A DNA stretch of 64,000 bases, taken from NCBI GenBank assembly GCA_947501445.1, contig CANMVS010000015.1, positions 62,001-126,000 of the forward strand, written 5' to 3'. Shown in pieces: positions 3,687-12,722 of this stretch (position 1 is the first letter of the stretch; each line of letters opens with the position of its first letter). A program made the translations under genes and the position numbers. The stretch is from an uncultured Rhizobiaceae group bacterium. Lineage in GTDB: Bacteria; Pseudomonadota; Alphaproteobacteria; Rhizobiales; Rhizobiaceae. A model generated the notes under the pieces. The model had not been told where the DNA came from, made no database searches, and saw nothing but the letters and a program-made list of their open reading frames with translations.

Positions 3687-5177
3687 ATGAATATCCAGAA
3701 TGTCGATTCACCGATTACAACACAGCTGTTCATACGGGGTGAAACCTGTGATGCACATGATGGTGCCACCTATGCGATCCAGAATCCGGCGCGCCCTGAT
3801 GAACTGGTGGGCTATGCGGCAAAAGGCAACGCCGAGGATGTTGACCGTGCTGTAACCGCAGCCAATGGCGCATTTCCGGCGTGGTCCGCATTGTCCTATG
3901 AGGCCCGGGCCGATCTGTTGATGAAAATAGCCGATACATTGGTTGCGGATGAAGATGATGTTGGATTTCGCTCGCGGCTGTTTTGCCGTGAGCATGGCAA
4001 GATCATCAAGGAAACCCTTCTGGAAATGACCCGTCTGGGAGATCGCTTTCGCCAATCCGCCGGATATGCAGCCCGTCTTGCGGCAGATGAGAATATTGCC
4101 GGTCCACCATTCGATACGATTGTAACGCGGCAGGCGCGCGGTGTTGCAGCACTGATTGTCCCCTGGAACTGGCCGCTTTCCATACTGGGCGCAAAGCTGC
4201 CGCAAGCACTGATTGCCGGTAACACGGTGGTGGTTAAACCATCACGCAATTCTGCACTCGCGCCATCTTTGACGTTGCACAAAATCGCAGCCATGCTTCC
4301 GCCCGGAGTGGTTAATGTCATAACCGGGGATGCCTCTGAAATCGGCGATGCGCTGGTAACGCATCCTCTGGTACGCTTTGTCAATTTCACCGGTTCGGTG
4401 AATGTCGGCAAACATGTGATGAAAATGGCGGCAGAAAATATCACGCCCGTCACTTTGGAACTGGGGGGTAATGATGCCGCCATCATATGCGCGGATGCGC
4501 AATTGGACGCGGGTGCCTTCATGCGCATGTACATGGGAGCGTTCATGTCATCAGGGCAAATCTGTATGGCATTGAAAAGGCTTTATGTGCACCGTTCACG
4601 CTATGACGAATTGATCGATGGAATGACTGCGACCTGCAACAAAATGGTGGTTGGTGATGGTTTGCTTGACGAAACCAATATGGGGCCGGTCAATAATGCC
4701 AGGCAATTGAAGGTTGTGACGGACATGATCAGCCAAGCGCGTCAGGCTGGTGCTGAAGTCCACGAATGTGGGCAGGTGCCAGATGAGGAACTTTATCAAA
4801 AGGGTTATTTCCAAAAACCAACACTCGTCTATAATCCCGATTCACAACTGGACATTGTAAAAGAAGAACAGTTTGGACCAGCCTTGCCCATAATGCCCTT
4901 TGACACAGACGATGAAGCCATTGCATTGGCAAATGACAGTCGGTTTGGCCTGTGTTCATCGGTGTGGACACCGGACCGGGACCGCGCTGTGGCTTTGGCG
5001 CGACGTCTTGAGGCTGGCTACACCTATTTGAATGCGCATGGTCCTGCGGCGCAGGACGGGCGTGGCCCCTTCGGCGGCTTCAAACAATCCGGTATCGGAC
5101 GCAATCTGGGATATGAAGGCGTCATTCAGTTTCAAGGATATCATTCAATCTCCGGCCCGGCGGGCTGGCTGTCCTAA
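3687..5177 (+). CDS. NAD(P)-dependent aldehyde dehydrogenase
   Basis: A 496-residue member of the aldehyde dehydrogenase superfamily, oxidising an aldehyde to the acid through a thioester on cysteine. The oxyanion asparagine is in VPWNWPLS, the general base Glu258 in LELGGND, and the catalytic Cys293 in SSGQICMA; the C-terminal GPFGGFKQSG block is present. The ATG follows a GGGAGCAGG ribosome site. It is first in an operon with a TRAP transporter (dctP 23 bp downstream), and a GntR gene is divergent. The aldehyde therefore probably arises from the compound taken up by that transporter, which cannot be named. Sequence SSGQICMA resembles succinate-semialdehyde and benzaldehyde-type enzymes only in a general way. 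Confidence 0.9.
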   Translation: MNIQNVDSPITTQLFIRGETCDAHDGATYAIQNPARPDELVGYAAKGNAEDVDRAVTAANGAFPAWSALSYEARADLLMKIADTLVADEDDVGFRSRLFCREHGKIIKETLLEMTRLGDRFRQSAGYAARLAADENIAGPPFDTIVTRQARGVAALIVPWNWPLSILGAKLPQALIAGNTVVVKPSRNSALAPSLTLHKIAAMLPPGVVNVITGDASEIGDALVTHPLVRFVNFTGSVNVGKHVMKMAAENITPVTLELGGNDAAIICADAQLDAGAFMRMYMGAFMSSGQICMALKRLYVHRSRYDELIDGMTATCNKMVVGDGLLDETNMGPVNNARQLKVVTDMISQARQAGAEVHECGQVPDEELYQKGYFQKPTLVYNPDSQLDIVKEEQFGPALPIMPFDTDDEAIALANDSRFGLCSSVWTPDRDRAVALARRLEAGYTYLNAHGPAAQDGRGPFGGFKQSGIGRNLGYEGVIQFQGYHSISGPAGWLS

Positions 5178-5199
5178 TGGACGTTTTGGGAGGAACGAA

Positions 5200-6186
5200 A
5201 TGAATAAGTTGGTTGCAATACTGGCGGCCGGGTTTGTCGCAATGGGTATAACGACACCCATGGCGAAAGATTTGAGCCTTTCCTACTTTATGGGCCCCAA
5301 GCACCCGATGAATGGTGCGGTGTTCAAACCCTTTGCCGACAAGCTTGCTGAATTGTCCGAGGGCAATTTGACAGTGACGCAATTCCCCGGCGGTGCACTG
5401 AACTCGGTGCCACCAAAACAATATTCCATTTTGCTTGATGGTGTCGCCGATATTGCCTTTCATCTGCCCGGGTATACGTCACAGCTTTTTCCGATGACAA
5501 ATGTGGTTACCGTGCCGACGCTTTGTGACAGCGCTATTGCCTGTACAGAGGGGCTGCTGCGCGCCCGTTCAGAACTGGAGAAGGAATATAACGCGAAAGT
5601 TCTCGCCATATGGGCGAACTCGCCACCGGTGCTGATTACCCGCGACAAGCCGGTGCGCAGCCTGAAGGATCTGGAAGGCATGAAGGTACGTGTCACATCT
5701 GCGACTGATGTGCCCTTTACCGAGGCGCTTGGTGCATCGGCTGTGTCTCAGCCGGTTTCGGTGATCAACCAGAATCTGACAAATGGCGTGATTGACGCGA
5801 TTGCCATCGACCCGTCAGCGATCCGGTCCTTCAAACTGCATGAAGCCGGAAACTATGTAACGACCTGGTATCCCGGCTCCGGCTCTGCATTTGTGTTGCT
5901 GATGAACCGCGGCATCTATGACGCATTGTCTGATCAGGAAAAGGCCTGGATTGATGCGGCAGCAGACGACAGCCTCTCCATGAGCGGCGGACGTGTCTAT
6001 GAAGCAGCGGCCTCAAAGGGCATTGAGGCTGCGCGGCAGGCCGGCAATGAAATCATCGACCTGCCTGATGATGAGAAGGCAAAATTCAATGCCGCCATTG
6101 CCGATGAACTGGCCAAATTCAAGGCAGCCGAGTTGAAAGACGGTGTAACGGGAGCACAGGTTATTCAGTTGATGCGCGGCAACTGA
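5200..6186 (+). CDS. TRAP transporter solute-binding protein (DctP family)
   Basis: A periplasmic extracytoplasmic solute receptor of the tripartite ATP-independent transporter family, 328 residues from the ATG at 5200, which follows GGGAGGAA; the longer ORF start at 5032 lies inside aldehyde dehydrogenase and is rejected. Residues 1-22 are a Sec-type signal (LVAILAAGFVAMGITTPMA). The DctP fold is visible through PMNGAVFKPFADKLAELS at the start, LKDLEGMKVRV near residue 155 and the helix GVIDAIAIDPSAI. It is followed by GTG-started dctQ 1 bp later and then dctM. Substrate is unknown; an organic acid or an aldehyde precursor handled by the upstream dehydrogenase is the likeliest class. Confidence 0.9.
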   Translation: MNKLVAILAAGFVAMGITTPMAKDLSLSYFMGPKHPMNGAVFKPFADKLAELSEGNLTVTQFPGGALNSVPPKQYSILLDGVADIAFHLPGYTSQLFPMTNVVTVPTLCDSAIACTEGLLRARSELEKEYNAKVLAIWANSPPVLITRDKPVRSLKDLEGMKVRVTSATDVPFTEALGASAVSQPVSVINQNLTNGVIDAIAIDPSAIRSFKLHEAGNYVTTWYPGSGSAFVLLMNRGIYDALSDQEKAWIDAAADDSLSMSGGRVYEAAASKGIEAARQAGNEIIDLPDDEKAKFNAAIADELAKFKAAELKDGVTGAQVIQLMRGN

Positions 6187-6187
6187 C

Positions 6188-6715
6188 GTGCCAACGGGTG
6201 GCTTGTTCAGTACCATAGATCGGGGGCTCGGCAGACTGGTCGGGCTCCTTTCAATTGTCGGCTCCCTATGCCTTATTGCGCTCGTGGCTATCACTGTGGT
6301 TGCTGTGGTCGCGCGCTATTTCTTCAATGATCCGATATTTGGCATTGAGGATGTGTCGACCATGGCATTGACTGTCGTTGTTGCAGCAGCTGTTGCCTAT
6401 GGCGGTCAACACGGGGCGCATGTTTCCGTTAATGTTATCGGTTTTTTTGCCGGGCGGAAGACGACAAGGATTACCGATATTCTGGCCCGGTCGTTGGGCG
6501 TCATGACGATTGCGATCGCAGCCTATGCTCTCTTTGCAAAAGGGCAGTGTGGTTTCGAATGCGGTGCATTTACCGCCAATTTGGAAATTCATCACAAGAT
6601 ATTTTATTATACGCTTGGTATTGCCATGGCCTTGTACTGCGCGCAGTTGTTGGTTCATCTCATTGCAGGTATTGTCCATTTCAATGGTGAAGACCCGCAT
6701 GAAATTGCAGATTGA
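6188..6715 (+). CDS. TRAP transporter small permease (DctQ family)
   Basis: A 175-residue membrane protein with four hydrophobic segments (about residues 17-39, 55-75, 95-115 and 135-160), the standard DctQ layout. The DctQ-typical block VVARYFFNDPIFGIEDVS follows the first helix. It starts with GTG one base after the dctP stop, so translation is probably coupled. DctQ is the small subunit that joins the large DctM permease and the periplasmic receptor in a sodium-driven importer. Assignment rests on topology and operon order. Confidence 0.88.
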   Translation: MPTGGLFSTIDRGLGRLVGLLSIVGSLCLIALVAITVVAVVARYFFNDPIFGIEDVSTMALTVVVAAAVAYGGQHGAHVSVNVIGFFAGRKTTRITDILARSLGVMTIAIAAYALFAKGQCGFECGAFTANLEIHHKIFYYTLGIAMALYCAQLLVHLIAGIVHFNGEDPHEIAD

Positions 6716-6746
6716 TGAGCAACGATCCCATGGCTGGATGGTGTGA

Positions 6747-8051
6747 ATGAGCAATTTTGATATCGGTCTTTTAGGGTTTGCCACGCTCTTCATCCTGCTC
6801 CTTATTCGCATGCCGGTGGGCACAGCCATGCTTCTGGTTGGCGGTGCAGGCATCTGGATCATCAGACCACCAGCGATGATCCCGGTCATAGCGGGCGAAA
6901 TTTTTGGCGAGGCGTCCAATTATTCTCTGACGATATTGCCGCTGTTTATTCTGATGGGCAATCTGGCCGGTGTCTCCGGCATGAGCAGGGATTTATACGA
7001 TGCTGCCCACAGTTGGTTTGGCCATCTCAAGGGGGGCCTTGCCTCGTCAACGATCGTCGGGTGTGCCGGATTTTCCGCCCTTTCAGGATCTTCGCTGGCG
7101 GCAGCGCTGACAATGGGGCGGGTCAGCCTGCCTGAAATGCAGCGTTACAAATATGACAATGGGCTTGCAACCGGCGCGATCGCTGCCGGCGGAACGCTGG
7201 GGATATTAATTCCGCCATCTGCCGGTTTTGTTGTTTATGCCATTTTGACCGAGGAGAGTATCGGGCGCCTGTTCATTGCCGGTGTCATTCCGGGCATTTT
7301 GCTGACCATGCTGTTTGTGGCGGCCATTCGATTGATAGTTGGCCTCAATCCGGCAAAGGCACCGGTCGCTCTTGCCGCAGAACCCTTAGCCCGGCGGTTT
7401 GCTGCCCTGCTGCGTGCGTCATGGATACTTGGCATTATTTTCATAACGATTGGCGGTATTTACATAGGTGTTTTTTCCGCCGTTGAAGCCGCTGGCATTG
7501 GCGCGTTCTTTGCCTTTTTGGTCGCGCTTTTGCGTCGATCGCTGGGCTGGAAAAACTGCCGTGATGTATTGAGCAGCACACTGCGTTCAACCGGAACAGT
7601 CTTTCTGATCCTGTTTGGTGCTTTCGTTTTCAAAACCTTTATCGCTTTTACCGGTATCCCGTTTCAACTCGTCAGTCTGGTCTCCGAAAGCGGCCTTTCG
7701 GCGATGGAAATCGTCCTCATCATTTTGGTGATTTTCATTGTTCTGGGCACATTTCTTGAAGGGTTCGCCATCTTGGTTTTGACGATCCCGCTGGTGCAGC
7801 CGATATTGCAGGATCACGCGGTGAATATGATCTGGTTTGGTGTTTTGATGGTCATCGTCCTGGAAATGGCGCTGATATCACCACCGGTCGGGCTGAATGT
7901 TTTTGTGGTCAAGGGGATTGCCCCGGACGTGCCCATGAACACAATTTTCCGCGGCATATGGCCGTTCTGGTTCGCCATGCTGCTCGCCGTGGTCCTTATT
8001 CTGCTGATTCCAGCCTTGGCACTTTACCTTCCAAACACCATGTTTGGATGA
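6747..8051 (+). CDS. TRAP transporter large permease (DctM family)
   Basis: A 434-residue polytopic inner-membrane protein, normal length for DctM. The family blocks are visible: MPVGTAMLLVGGAG at the start, LTILPLFILMGNLAG near residue 60, SGSSLAAALTMG near 113, and GTLGILIPPSAGFVVYAI near 150, the conserved segment of the transport domain. The second half repeats the pattern (FLEGFAILVLTIPLVQPI, ISPPVGLNVFVVKGI). It imports the ligand of the preceding DctP using an ion gradient. It is the last gene of the aldehyde dehydrogenase-dctPQM operon and converges with the AlaRS-like gene 14 bp away. Confidence 0.93.
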   Translation: MSNFDIGLLGFATLFILLLIRMPVGTAMLLVGGAGIWIIRPPAMIPVIAGEIFGEASNYSLTILPLFILMGNLAGVSGMSRDLYDAAHSWFGHLKGGLASSTIVGCAGFSALSGSSLAAALTMGRVSLPEMQRYKYDNGLATGAIAAGGTLGILIPPSAGFVVYAILTEESIGRLFIAGVIPGILLTMLFVAAIRLIVGLNPAKAPVALAAEPLARRFAALLRASWILGIIFITIGGIYIGVFSAVEAAGIGAFFAFLVALLRRSLGWKNCRDVLSSTLRSTGTVFLILFGAFVFKTFIAFTGIPFQLVSLVSESGLSAMEIVLIILVIFIVLGTFLEGFAILVLTIPLVQPILQDHAVNMIWFGVLMVIVLEMALISPPVGLNVFVVKGIAPDVPMNTIFRGIWPFWFAMLLAVVLILLIPALALYLPNTMFG

Positions 8052-8065
8052 ACACAAGTCAGGGT

Positions 8066-8944
8066 CTAATTCGCCTCAAACAGTATTCGACCAGAAGGTG
8101 GATTGTTGCCGCCACTAAATCGGTCAATATGTTCGAATAAAAGGCCAAGGCGGTCCTGCCAATCGGGAATTTGGCCGGTGGTGGCCAGCGCAAATCGCTC
8201 CGTACCTAGTCCAAAGGCAAATTGTACGGTGGCGTCAGTGGACGCTTCGCCAATCTCGCTCCAGCCTGCGGTTTGCGGATAGGTTGAAAAGACCGGCGGG
8301 TCACCTTCATCAATCCAATAGTAAATGCCAACTGTTGCAAACGCATGTGCAGAAGGATCCCCCGGGAAGCGGTAGAATCCGGACCCGTCAGCGGCAACCT
8401 GAGCCTCTTTTGTGTCTCTGAAAAATACCTGTCTATCCGTATCGATGCCGTGTTCGGCCAAAATCGGCAGAAAGGGCTCAAATTCCGATGTACTGACAAA
8501 CTGCAAATGGCTCTTTTTCAATCCGTCATTGACATCCAAGTACGCCATCAATTGTTTGAACGTATCCATCTTGCTGTGGTCTGGCGGTGCAAAGCAACAG
8601 AAAATGTGAAAGAGCGGCAATACATCCCTGCGGTGTTTGCGGGCAATATCCTCAACGCGAACACAGGGTTGAATAATCATCTGGCCGGGAAGAACATCAA
8701 CCCCGGTTTCGTCATAACGAAGGCCTGCATTAAAACTCTCATCACCGGTTATTGTCGGCAACGAACCGGCCATCCTGTAGCCTTTGTCGGCGAAATAATC
8801 GATCATTGATACATGGACGAGATGAGTTGGCCCATCAAGCCCGCTGCCTTTTGCTTCATCAGCTGAATAGGTCCTTGAGGGCAAAACCGAACTTGCCGCG
8901 ATAAGCGCGCTGGCCTTCAAGAGTGCACGACGTTGTTTCAACAC
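8066..8944 (-). CDS. Alanyl-tRNA-synthetase-core-like protein with twin-arginine leader
   Basis: The first 30 residues look like a Tat signal: QRRALLK, a hydrophobic stretch, then a possible cleavage site near SRTYSADEA. From about residue 42 the protein follows the order of the class II AlaRS catalytic core: VSMIDYFADKGYRMAGSLP (compare the AlaRS start helix), IIQPCVRVEDI with an arginine at 96 in the motif 2 region, an LPLFHIFCCFAP strand where AlaRS has its FFEML block, and FGLGTERFAL (Arg250) like motif 3. No tRNA-binding, editing or C-Ala domain is present (292 residues against about 870). It is divergent from znuC-znuB-zur, and zinc-site-like dyads lie between. Function unknown; export and relation to AlaRS are inferences from reading alone. 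Confidence 0.6.
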   Translation of the reverse strand: MLKQRRALLKASALIAASSVLPSRTYSADEAKGSGLDGPTHLVHVSMIDYFADKGYRMAGSLPTITGDESFNAGLRYDETGVDVLPGQMIIQPCVRVEDIARKHRRDVLPLFHIFCCFAPPDHSKMDTFKQLMAYLDVNDGLKKSHLQFVSTSEFEPFLPILAEHGIDTDRQVFFRDTKEAQVAADGSGFYRFPGDPSAHAFATVGIYYWIDEGDPPVFSTYPQTAGWSEIGEASTDATVQFAFGLGTERFALATTGQIPDWQDRLGLLFEHIDRFSGGNNPPSGRILFEAN

Positions 8945-9033: not shown

Positions 9034-9046
9034 GTAATATTATTAC
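9034..9046. promoter_or_regulatory. Candidate Zur operator 1, GTAATATTATTAC
   Basis: A perfect 13-bp dyad (GTAATA-T-TATTAC) in the region between the AlaRS-like gene and znuC. AT-rich dyads of this form resemble Zur/Fur-family sites, and zur is the last gene of the adjacent operon, which suggests autoregulation by zinc. Not verified by binding or motif search. Confidence 0.5.
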
Positions 9047-9055
9047 ATGAATTGC

Positions 9056-9068
9056 GTTACTCTATAAC
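9056..9068. promoter_or_regulatory. Candidate Zur operator 2, GTTAC-TCT-ATAAC
   Basis: A second, less perfect dyad (GTTA-N5-TAAC) lies 22 bp centre-to-centre from the first, about 40 bp before the znuC start, and runs into another near-dyad TAACATATGTAA. Two turns of helix between the sites would let two Zur dimers bind the same face and control both divergent genes. Confidence 0.45.
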
Positions 9069-9106: not shown

Positions 9107-9967
9107 GTGCCTGTGCCAGATGCACGTGAACCACTGATTTGTCTGAAGAATGCTGGACTGGAGAAGGCAGGGCGCTGGCTGGTGCGCGGTATTGAGTTTT
9201 CTGTCCGACCCCGTGAAATCGTCACGCTGATCGGTCCAAATGGTTCCGGCAAATCAACGACCGCAAAACTTGCGCTTGGTATTCACAGGCCCAGTGAAGG
9301 TGAGGCGCAAAGAAAGAATGGGATAAAAATCGGGTATGTGCCCCAAAAAATTGCGATTGACTGGACATTGCCGTTGAGCGTTGAACGCTTCATGCAACTG
9401 ACACAATCATTGTCGCCCGCGCAAATTTCAGCGGCTCTTGAGGCGACAGGTATCGCGCATCTTGCCAAAGCCGAGGTGCGGAATTTGTCCGGCGGGGAAT
9501 TTCAGCGCGCCATGCTGGCTCGGGCGATGGCTGCGAAGCCCGACTTTCTGGTGCTTGATGAGCCGGTGCAGGGGGTTGATTTTGCCGGTGAAATTGCCCT
9601 GTATGAATTGATTGGTAAAATACGTGACGAGCTGGAATGTGGGATATTGCTGATTTCCCATGATTTGCATGTGGTCATGGCAGCCACCGACCAGGTTATT
9701 TGCCTGAACGGTCACGTATGTTGCAAGGGAACCCCCGATGCCGTGGTGGAGAGCGCCGAATATCGTAGATTGTTTGGAGATCGTGCAGCGCCAGCACTGG
9801 CGATCTATCAGCATCAGCATGATCACACCCATCTTCCCGATGGTACAGTCAGGCACGCCGATGGTTCTGTAACTGATCATTGTCACCCGGACGATGGTCA
9901 TCACCACCATGAAATTGACCACAGCGAACCAGTGACAAATGCAAATCGGAAAAATGATCATGTTTGA
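9107..9967 (+). CDS. znuC: Zinc ABC transporter ATP-binding protein
   Basis: A 286-residue ABC ATPase that powers zinc import from the cytoplasmic face. Walker A is GPNGSGKST, the signature is LSGGEFQR, Walker B is FLVLDEP and the H-loop is LLISHDL. The C-terminal 60 residues form a histidine-rich tail (HQHDHTH, HCHPDDGHHHHEIDH), typical of ZnuC proteins and probably metal sensing. The start is GTG. The stop overlaps znuB by 8 bp. The usual periplasmic znuA is not in the cluster, so the binding protein must be encoded elsewhere or replaced. Candidate Zur sites lie just upstream. Confidence 0.95.
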   Translation: MPVPDAREPLICLKNAGLEKAGRWLVRGIEFSVRPREIVTLIGPNGSGKSTTAKLALGIHRPSEGEAQRKNGIKIGYVPQKIAIDWTLPLSVERFMQLTQSLSPAQISAALEATGIAHLAKAEVRNLSGGEFQRAMLARAMAAKPDFLVLDEPVQGVDFAGEIALYELIGKIRDELECGILLISHDLHVVMAATDQVICLNGHVCCKGTPDAVVESAEYRRLFGDRAAPALAIYQHQHDHTHLPDGTVRHADGSVTDHCHPDDGHHHHEIDHSEPVTNANRKNDHV

Positions 9968-10787
9968 TGATTTTTTTACACGCGCAATCATTGCAGGTGT
10001 AGGCGTTGCCATTGTTGCTGCGCCGCTTGGATGTCTGGTGATATGGCGACGCCTGGCCTATTTTGGAGACACCTTGTCCCATGCCGCTTTGCTGGGTGTC
10101 GCATTGGCGTTTTTGCTGCAGGTGAACATAACACTGGCAGTCTTTGTGGTTTGCGCTCTGGTAGCGCTGGCACTGGTTGGACTGCAGCGTCATGCGACGC
10201 TTTCGTCCGATTCACTTCTCGGTTTGCTTGCTCATTCGTCACTGGCCCTTGGTCTGGTTGTTTTGGCTTCGATGACGTGGCTGCGTATTGATCTGATGGG
10301 GTTTCTGTTTGGCGATATCCTGTCCGTATCTATCGTTGATATCGGTATTATCTATCTGGGTGGTGCGGCAGTACTGGTTGTATTGGCTGTGATCTGGAAG
10401 CCGCTCTTTGCAGCAACCGTGAACCGGGAGCTTGCAGAGGCAGAAGGACAGAACCCGGATCGAACGAATTTGATTTTCATGCTTTTGATGGCCGTGGTTA
10501 TTGCAATCTCCATGAAAATAGTAGGTGTATTGCTCATCACAGCCTTGCTGATCATTCCCGCAGCCACCGCAAGGCGTTTTTCTACCGGGCCAGAGCAAAT
10601 GGCGGTAATAGCTGCAATCGTGGGCGTGGCGGCAGTCGTATCCGGCCTTTTTGGCTCGCTGAAATGGGACACCCCGTCGGGACCATCCATCGTGGTCGCA
10701 GCACTGGCACTGTTTCTTGTCAGTCTGTCGCCTGTGGCAGGGATCATCATCAATCTCAGCAAGCGCTCATTGGGAGAAAAACTGTGA
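9960..10787 (+). CDS. znuB: Zinc ABC transporter permease
   Basis: Membrane subunit of the zinc importer with about eight hydrophobic segments. The family block APLGCLVIWRRLAYFGDTLSHAALLGVA occurs near residue 20, and SDSLLGLLAHSSLALGLVV and RIDLMGFLFGDIL follow as in ZnuB. ATGs at 9939, 9954 and 9960 are in frame; the one at 9960 (MFDDFF) is chosen because a CGGA site stands 9 nt before it and the length then matches the family. It overlaps znuC by 8 bp and zur by 4 bp (GTGA), so the three are translationally coupled. Confidence 0.93.
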   Translation: MFDDFFTRAIIAGVGVAIVAAPLGCLVIWRRLAYFGDTLSHAALLGVALAFLLQVNITLAVFVVCALVALALVGLQRHATLSSDSLLGLLAHSSLALGLVVLASMTWLRIDLMGFLFGDILSVSIVDIGIIYLGGAAVLVVLAVIWKPLFAATVNRELAEAEGQNPDRTNLIFMLLMAVVIAISMKIVGVLLITALLIIPAATARRFSTGPEQMAVIAAIVGVAAVVSGLFGSLKWDTPSGPSIVVAALALFLVSLSPVAGIIINLSKRSLGEKL

Positions 10788-11194
10788 AATTGCAGCAGAA
10801 TTCCAAACTCACCAAAAACCAGGGGCTTGTGTACGATGCGCTCTCAAAGGCTGATGGGCCGCTGAGCGCCTATACGATACTGGATGGATTGCGCGATCAC
10901 GGGATCCGTGCGCCACTTCAGGTATATCGTGCTTTGGACAAGTTACTTGAATTTGGAATGGTACATCGTCTGGAGAGCCTCAATTCATTCGTTGTTTGCC
11001 GACATCCCGATTGTGAAACGCAAAAAACCATGGTTTTTGCAATCTGTGAAAGTTGCGAAAATGTGTTGGAGCTTGCCGATGATGGACTTGTTGGACAACT
11101 CGCAACATTGGCTGATGCGCGAGGATTCAGCGTAAAAACCACCACGATAGAGATGTCGGGACTGTGCTCTGATTGTAGTGCAGTCCAGCCCTGA
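10784..11194 (+). CDS. zur: Zinc uptake regulator of the Fur family
   Basis: A 136-residue Fur-family repressor that shuts off zinc uptake when zinc is sufficient. The start is the GTG at 10784 overlapping the znuB stop; the longer ORF at 10664 only runs into znuB. A winged helix occupies about residues 10-75 (LTKNQGLVYDALSKADGPLS, APLQVYRALDKLLEFG). Metal-site cysteines are in CRHPDCE, CESCENV and the C-terminal CSDC, the structural zinc pattern of Zur. Likely binds the dyads before znuC and so controls its own operon. Confidence 0.92.
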   Translation: MKLQQNSKLTKNQGLVYDALSKADGPLSAYTILDGLRDHGIRAPLQVYRALDKLLEFGMVHRLESLNSFVVCRHPDCETQKTMVFAICESCENVLELADDGLVGQLATLADARGFSVKTTTIEMSGLCSDCSAVQP

Positions 11195-11318: not shown

Positions 11319-12722
11319 ATGACAATATGGCAACCCAAATCAGGACAATTGACACGCCCCATCTATTTATCGCTTCAAAAACAATTTATTGCAGCGATTG
11401 ATAGTGGTGAGCTCGCTCCCGGCGAACAATTGCCGACCCACAGGGATCTGGCTTACACACTGGATGTTTCAGTACAAACAATTTCAAGAGCCTATGAGGC
11501 ACTTCGGGATCTGGGCTACATTACCGGTGAAATTGGTCGTGGCAGTTTTGTCTGTGCCAGGTCTGGTGATATCCCAATGCCGTTTCTTCCTGACAGGGAA
11601 GAGGAACTGATTGATCTGTCTCTGCTAAAGCCGGCTATCGACGATACACACACAAAAGCGATGAAAGAAGCACTGCATGGATTGGGAAGACGGGTTGAAG
11701 CCAACCTGATCCGGGCCTTTAGACCCGAAGCTGCTGTCAGGCCACAAGTTGAGGTATTGTCCAATTGGCTGTGCGACAAAGGTATTCCAACACGCAGTGA
11801 CGTGCTGGTTCCGACAAATGGCGCAGCCTCCGCCCTGACGACCGCTCTTATGACAGCGGTGCCCCCGGGGGCGGCGGTCGTATCAGAGGAAATCAGTTTC
11901 CATACGCTCAAACCGCTTTGCCGCTATTTGGGACTGCGTTTGTACGCTGCCAGTGCCGATGCTCAGGGGCTTACTCCGGATGCATTTGAACAAGCATGCC
12001 TGAAACATCATCCACGGGCAGTGTTTTTAATGCCGAGCGCTGCCGGTCCGAAAGCCGGACTAATGGATGAGCAGCGAAGAAAATCGCTATTGGCCATTGC
12101 AGAAAACCATAGTGTTTTCATCATTGAAGATGATGTTCTTGGAACGATGATTGAAGACGCACCCGCTACTTTCTACGCCCGCGCACCGGAATTGACCTTC
12201 TATCTAAGCTCGTTCAGCAAGACAATCATTCCCGGATTGCGCTTTGGCTTTCTGCTTACGCCGGAGGCATCGATTGTAGCCGCGCGCAACAGACACATGG
12301 TTACCAATTGGATGGCCACCCCACTGATGGCCGACATTGCTGCCCAATGGCTGGCGGATGGAACTGCAGATCGGTTGATTGCCTGGCAACGTCGCGAGTT
12401 GACAGTTCGTCAGGCCATTGTTCGTGAGATCATCGGGCACTGCGATTATTGCAGTCACACCTGCGGCATGCATATCTGGTTGCATCTGCCCGTAAGTTGG
12501 AGTGAGACTGAATTTATGCTGCAACTGCGACGGCAGAATATTGCAGTTGCCGGCAGTTTGCCATTTGTCATGGGCGATAGAAACAGTGAAGGTGAGCCTC
12601 GGGCTGATAATGCGGTTCGGATAGCGATTGGTGCGACCAGTCAGGCAAACCTTCGGCGGGCCCTGATTTCAATACGGGATCTTCTGGATGGCCATTCGGA
12701 AAAACTACTCCCGGCATTTTGA
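11319..12722 (+). CDS. MocR-family regulator (GntR winged helix plus aminotransferase-like domain)
   Basis: Residues 1-80 form a GntR winged helix (LPTHRDLAYTLDVSVQTISRAYEALRDLGYI). After a linker, residues 115-460 resemble a class I aminotransferase, with the PLP-binding lysine expected in YLSSFSKTIIPGLRFGF near residue 300. MocR/GabR proteins use PLP bound to an amine ligand to sense a substrate. The next gene on the same strand is ectoine hydrolase, and ectoine-catabolic clusters often carry the MocR-type regulator EnuR, which senses a diaminobutyrate derivative. An EnuR role here is inferred from that context and not shown by the sequence. Confidence 0.88.
   Translation: MTIWQPKSGQLTRPIYLSLQKQFIAAIDSGELAPGEQLPTHRDLAYTLDVSVQTISRAYEALRDLGYITGEIGRGSFVCARSGDIPMPFLPDREEELIDLSLLKPAIDDTHTKAMKEALHGLGRRVEANLIRAFRPEAAVRPQVEVLSNWLCDKGIPTRSDVLVPTNGAASALTTALMTAVPPGAAVVSEEISFHTLKPLCRYLGLRLYAASADAQGLTPDAFEQACLKHHPRAVFLMPSAAGPKAGLMDEQRRKSLLAIAENHSVFIIEDDVLGTMIEDAPATFYARAPELTFYLSSFSKTIIPGLRFGFLLTPEASIVAARNRHMVTNWMATPLMADIAAQWLADGTADRLIAWQRRELTVRQAIVREIIGHCDYCSHTCGMHIWLHLPVSWSETEFMLQLRRQNIAVAGSLPFVMGDRNSEGEPRADNAVRIAIGATSQANLRRALISIRDLLDGHSEKLLPAF

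Follow-up and report, generated by a model that had tools for sequence, protein, structure and literature searches.

A predicted Tat-exported protein family that almost certainly descends from the alanyl-tRNA synthetase catalytic core

Alanyl-tRNA synthetase (AlaRS) is an enzyme of protein synthesis that works inside the cell. As far as we found, the cores of aminoacyl-tRNA synthetases (aaRSs) have been reused many times, in bacteria always inside the cell. Amino acid:carrier protein ligases, which are cytoplasmic and related to SerRS, have a class II core without the tRNA-binding part, and HisZ, a HisRS paralogue that is the regulatory subunit of HisG, reuses a class II core without adenylation. 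The carrier protein ligases are zinc-dependent, and a review of duplicated synthetases mentions no exported one (both PMC9437257). The closest characterised case to the protein described here is AcmF of ascamycin biosynthesis, a truncated AlaRS-like transferase in which the tRNA domain is kept and Glu232 is essential (PMC12945691). In the open-licence papers searched we came upon no account of a bacterial AlaRS-like protein that is exported or periplasmic, in agreement with the original prediction, which knew of none. A family of AlaRS descent that is conserved and exported in two phyla would give an ancient fold a new destination, and raises the question of which ligand sits in an adenylate pocket where ATP is normally absent.

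We analysed a 64,000-nucleotide stretch of DNA, hereafter the window, in which a minus-strand ORF had been predicted to encode an exported-looking AlaRS core. The ORF is confirmed beyond chance by 24 homologues and by dN/dS values of 0.11-0.23 in six pairs of relatives, which place the AlaRS-core-like protein under purifying selection. AAAGGA lies a few bases upstream of the GTG start. Residues are numbered on the 292-aa reading with GTG as residue 1; the alignment and the AlphaFold model begin one codon later, where R95/R249 correspond to R96/R250. The gene and its features, with residue assignments from the family alignment, are:

8066..8944, minus strand: gene of the AlaRS-core-like protein with a Tat-type leader (292 aa, GTG start, TAA stop)
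8864..8944, minus strand: predicted Tat-type signal peptide, residues 1 to ~27, from RR conservation in homologues
8927-8932, minus strand: twin arginines, residues 5-6, at one fixed position in 25/25 members
8069..8833, minus strand: AlaRS catalytic-core-like domain, residues 38-292 (AlphaFold, VIA-align, hhalign)
8729..8731, minus strand: Asn72, the Asn of the AlaRS NAGM element, invariant
8657..8659, minus strand: Arg96, the AlaRS motif 2 Arg, in 24/25
8609..8611, minus strand: Phe112, the second Phe of the AlaRS HTFFEM element, in 25/25
8246..8248, minus strand: Glu233, replacing the invariant Asn of AlaRS EIWN (24/25 Glu, 1 Asp)
8216..8218, minus strand: Ala243, replacing AlaRS Asp235 (E. 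coli numbering); Asp in 0/25 members
8195..8197, minus strand: Arg250, the class II motif 3 Arg, in 25/25

Single-sequence searches of Pfam, NCBIfam and PDB sequences gave no match for the window protein, which would therefore be filed as hypothetical. A search of 101 related genomes yielded five homologues from the genus, 48-49% identical to the window protein, plus a more distant one. Profile searches added members in other Rhizobiales and, in a genome collection, in Roseibium/Labrenzia, Bauldia and Acidimicrobiia-type actinobacteria; a contig scan of this collection with the single window protein found no match, whereas the alignment-based scan did. The family alignment holds 25 full-length members including the window protein, and the 24 homologues, at 24-48% identity to it, keep the RR leader and the AlaRS-core features. 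The family is rare in the order, with matches in 7 of 397 genomes (one of them to the leader only), and in the actinobacterial class, with two full members among 395 genomes; these counts are lower bounds, as the collection scan needs exact short patterns. No family member was found in plasmid and phage records. One order-wide match (L023) was dropped as a member, since only its leader was covered and the core was not found, and an apparent tandem paralogue adjoining the Bauldia gene (L032 6124-6837) proved to be a spurious ORF, clustered through an over-extended frame in L019. Two members come from records titled Candidatus Kuenenia (L042) and Bifidobacterium breve (L043) and cluster with the Acidimicrobiia-type members or come close to matching them; probably the records are mistitled or stem from mixed bins.

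We compared the family with AlaRS by structure and by profile, and both routes reached AlaRS. AlphaFold, given the 25-row alignment, modelled the window protein with a pLDDT of 85.6 and a pTM of 0.83, only model residues 1-34 being poor. Foldseek with this model returned AlaRS catalytic fragments as top matches (E 7e-10), and VIA-align superposed it on residues 2-315 of E. coli AlaRS (3hxu) with a Z of 20.4 and an rmsd of 3.1 over 247 aligned residues. The first 12 rows of the VIA-align ranking were all AlaRS, bacterial and human (Z 18.4-20.4), followed at about Z 14 by archaeal AlaRS, GlyRS alpha and other class II synthetases; HisZ also appeared among the structural matches, at a Z of ~13. 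For the model of a distant actinobacterial member, AlaRS was likewise the best match (Z 19.6). Independently of structure, hhalign matched the family to AlaRS profiles colinearly over the whole core, with E-values of 5.7e-8 (local) and 4.6e-11 (global). When the family profile was run by hmmsearch against unrelated genomes, the next-best matches were mostly frames of 557-1184 aa, hit at the AlaRS N-terminus, and Pfam confirmed tRNA-synt_2c in 9 of the 10 tested. The same Pfam model found no match in the window protein (E up to 10) or in the 25 members (E up to 1); signal-peptide models aside, no Pfam or NCBIfam model matches the family, so that its members will be listed in databases as hypothetical proteins. 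Taken together, the window protein almost certainly derives from AlaRS. The alignment originally made by eye was right, with Arg96 as the motif 2 Arg (CVR) and Arg250 as the motif 3 Arg (GxGxER), and the class II aaRS assignment held in the structure search.

At the residue level, the family and AlaRS conserve the same residue at Asn72, Gly74, Gln92, Arg96, Asp99, Phe112, Gly195, Glu230, Ile231, Gly245, Gly247, Glu249 and Arg250, and share an aromatic at position 191 (Tyr in the window protein, Phe in most members). The nucleotide-side residues are retained, namely the motif 2 Arg, Asp, Phe, Glu and the motif 3 Arg. The alanine side is different. AlaRS Asp235, which binds the alpha-amino group of alanine (PMC12143591), is Ala, Gly, Ser or another residue across the 25 members and never Asp, and the Trp of AlaRS DNFW is Ala or Arg in most members, in the register of a profile alignment at ~17% identity. 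Since the alanine-holding residues are replaced in every member examined, the amino-acid activation that had been proposed is unlikely for alanine. The AlaRS match stops near E. coli residue 315 and the protein ends after the core, so it lacks the tRNA-binding, editing and C-Ala parts, just as had been noted from the sequence. The same genome also encodes a canonical AlaRS, on an 889-aa open frame, so the window protein is a paralogue and not a replacement. Its length and its replaced Asp235 and Asn indicate that the window protein is very probably not a tRNA synthetase.

Set against the known systems, the family has in common with the AlaRS catalytic domain (PF01411, PDB 3hxu/1riq) the whole-domain fold, the order of elements, a NAGM-like element, the Q-x-C-x-R motif 2, the Phe, the E-I and the GxGxER motif 3. 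Unlike AlaRS, it appears to be exported, comprises a ~255-residue core only, with no tRNA-binding, editing or C-Ala part and no Pfam match, and has other residues in the alanine pocket where AlaRS has Asp235, Asn and Trp. AcmF is likewise free-standing, truncated and AlaRS-like, with changes at what are presumed to be the same Asn and Asp. However, AcmF carries Gln and Glu there, whereas the present family has Glu and Ala/Gly/Ser and no tRNA domain; an export signal is not reported for AcmF, in contrast to the Tat-type leader of the family. The amino acid:carrier protein ligases resemble the family in their class II core without a tRNA-binding part but differ from it in origin and place, the present family being AlaRS-derived and predicted to lie outside the cytoplasm. 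HisZ resembles it as a class II core reused without adenylation, yet belongs to another synthetase lineage, is cytoplasmic and has a defined partner.

The N-terminus of the window protein (VLKQRRALLKASALIAASSVLPSRTYSADEAKG) shows RR-x-L-L-K followed by a hydrophobic stretch, and the original reading of QRRALLK plus this stretch as a leader is borne out as a Tat-type signal. The leader is present in every homologue, and in all 25 members the twin arginines stand just ahead of a Tat-style hydrophobic stretch, which in 6/6 actinobacterial members is followed by a lipobox cysteine. The leader is directly followed by the core, which starts at AlaRS residue 2. The Pfam TAT_signal model matches 12 of the 25 members but not the window leader, whose hydrophobicity is only moderate. 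TatC is encoded in the window's genome. On the strength of this conserved pattern, we are highly confident in predicting that the AlaRS-core-like protein is exported.

The gene stands back to back with zinc uptake genes, and a link to zinc had been suggested. The intergenic region and the operon contain:

9107..11194, plus strand: znuC, znuB and zur, a divergent zinc uptake operon (NCBIfam, scores below curated cut-offs)
9034..9046, no strand: GTAATATTATTAC, a palindromic Zur-box-like site between the AlaRS-core-like gene and znuC
9056..9068, no strand: GTTATAGAGTAAC (as read on the minus strand), box-like, the counterpart of the znuC-upstream element in other genomes of the genus

The GTAATATTATTAC palindrome is expected 0.03 times in the window, for a pattern chosen after the region had been seen. 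Together with the 9056-9068 element it probably represents the Zur operators of znuC, and Zur control of the AlaRS-core-like gene by these boxes is possible. A promoter scan gave no match. In the window's genome, znuA lies on another contig (G000:C1:237804-238781), preceded by a Zur-like box and apart from znuC-znuB-zur.

That the protein is a zinc-stress paralogue or a zinc scavenger under Zur control is nonetheless very unlikely. The gene does adjoin znuCB-zur in 5/6 genus loci, Zur-box-like palindromes do lie between gene and operon in the window, and other aaRS paralogues respond to low zinc, for example ThrRS T2 (PMC9437257). Yet the adjacency is confined to one genus, in which znuB occurs in 8/8 genomes and the AlaRS-core-like gene in 6/8: two genomes (G001, G004) carry the operon without the gene, and in a third (G005) the gene lies 2.8 Mb from the operon, no Zur box was found beside it, and znuA takes the divergent place beside znuC. 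At two loci (L008, L009) the gene lies more than 1 kb from the box, with other ORFs in between. Within the genus the stable neighbour is a convergent thiolase. Outside it, we saw no zinc uptake genes near a family gene in the neighbourhoods examined, and the genes that adjoin it in the other clades are unrelated. The His and Cys residues behind the scavenger idea (H, CC and H of LFHIFCCFAPPDH) are not conserved across the family, with CC in the window protein and L010 only and the first H in 11/25. We conclude that the adjacency to znuC-znuB-zur is local synteny and that the evidence does not support the zinc idea. An AlaRS-like protein that stays in the cytoplasm, with an N-terminal stretch that is no export signal, would suit the moderately hydrophobic window leader and its failure to match TAT_signal, but we regard it as extremely improbable, given the twin arginines fixed at one position before the core in 25/25, the actinobacterial lipobox, and a leader of low model confidence that gives way to a core beginning at AlaRS residue 2.

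For the protein outside the membrane, our leading reading, which we hold at an even balance of belief and doubt, is a Tat-exported, single-domain AlaRS-core paralogue that binds or transforms a non-alanine, adenylate-like or anionic ligand. The protein would fold in the cytoplasm and be exported folded by Tat; outside the membrane the old adenylate pocket, its floor newly acidic through Glu230 and Glu233, would be reused for a small ligand other than alanine, adenylate-like or otherwise anionic, which it would bind or transform. The ligand part taken by itself, an extramembrane pocket for such a ligand, we likewise judge a coin-toss. Tat transports folded, ligand-loaded proteins, and ATP is scarce outside the cytoplasm and normally absent from the periplasm. 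A pseudo-enzyme that lies outside the membrane without catalysing a reaction, and uses the AlaRS fold only as scaffold, sensor or partner subunit as HisZ does for HisG, would accord with this scarcity of ATP and with the loss of the alanine-side residues in all members, and HisZ itself is a class II core turned non-adenylating regulator (PMC9437257). This alternative is a serious one but seems unlikely to us, since the retained nucleotide-side residues, from the motif 2 Arg to the motif 3 Arg, belong to the best-conserved of the family, beyond what a pure scaffold needs, and no conserved partner gene was seen in the neighbourhoods examined; the nucleotide-side residues could, however, be kept for the fold alone. 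Their retention could also point to an enzyme that truly works as a ligase or aminoacyl transferase outside the cytoplasm and activates an amino or other acid or passes it to an envelope component, perhaps exported adenylate-bound, as the Tat route would permit, and AcmF, truncated and AlaRS-like, does function as a transferase with its Asn and Asp altered (PMC12945691). But the amino-acid anchor Asp is lost outright where AcmF keeps its essential Glu, AcmF retains a tRNA recognition domain that the present family lacks, and there is no ATP source, so that we find this alternative doubtful; we are equally sceptical of an AlaRS-core enzyme exported folded by Tat, possibly substrate-loaded, that modifies an envelope or extracellular molecule. 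Under the leading reading, the protein may act by binding, by transfer or by sensing only.

Several features of the surroundings deserve mention. In the window, an aldehyde dehydrogenase gene and, after it, a three-part TRAP transporter (dctP, small subunit, dctM) occupy 3687-8051, a block that looks like an insertion, since in three other genomes of the genus that lack it the thiolase adjoins the AlaRS-like gene. The frame at 11319-12722 encodes a MocR-like regulator whose NCBIfam score for EhuR (ectoine utilisation) exceeds the cut-off. Outside the genus, neighbourhoods vary by clade and we saw no shared partner gene: a choline sulfatase adjoins the family gene in most Roseibium/Labrenzia, DUF922 in Bauldia, DoxX and DsbB in G383, and PhyH and carotenoid-type genes in the actinobacteria. 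PhyH is the upstream neighbour at L040, with a related gene at that place at L036 and L041, and at L103 (G905:C92, ~1501-1644) a remnant of a family member (GGGSGIGVERVAVARSG...) directly follows a PhyH-type-dioxygenase-like frame. In G383 (L123 7415-9171) the DoxX-type gene and the AlaRS-like gene share a strand, the first ending ~15 bases ahead of the second, and possibly form one operon.
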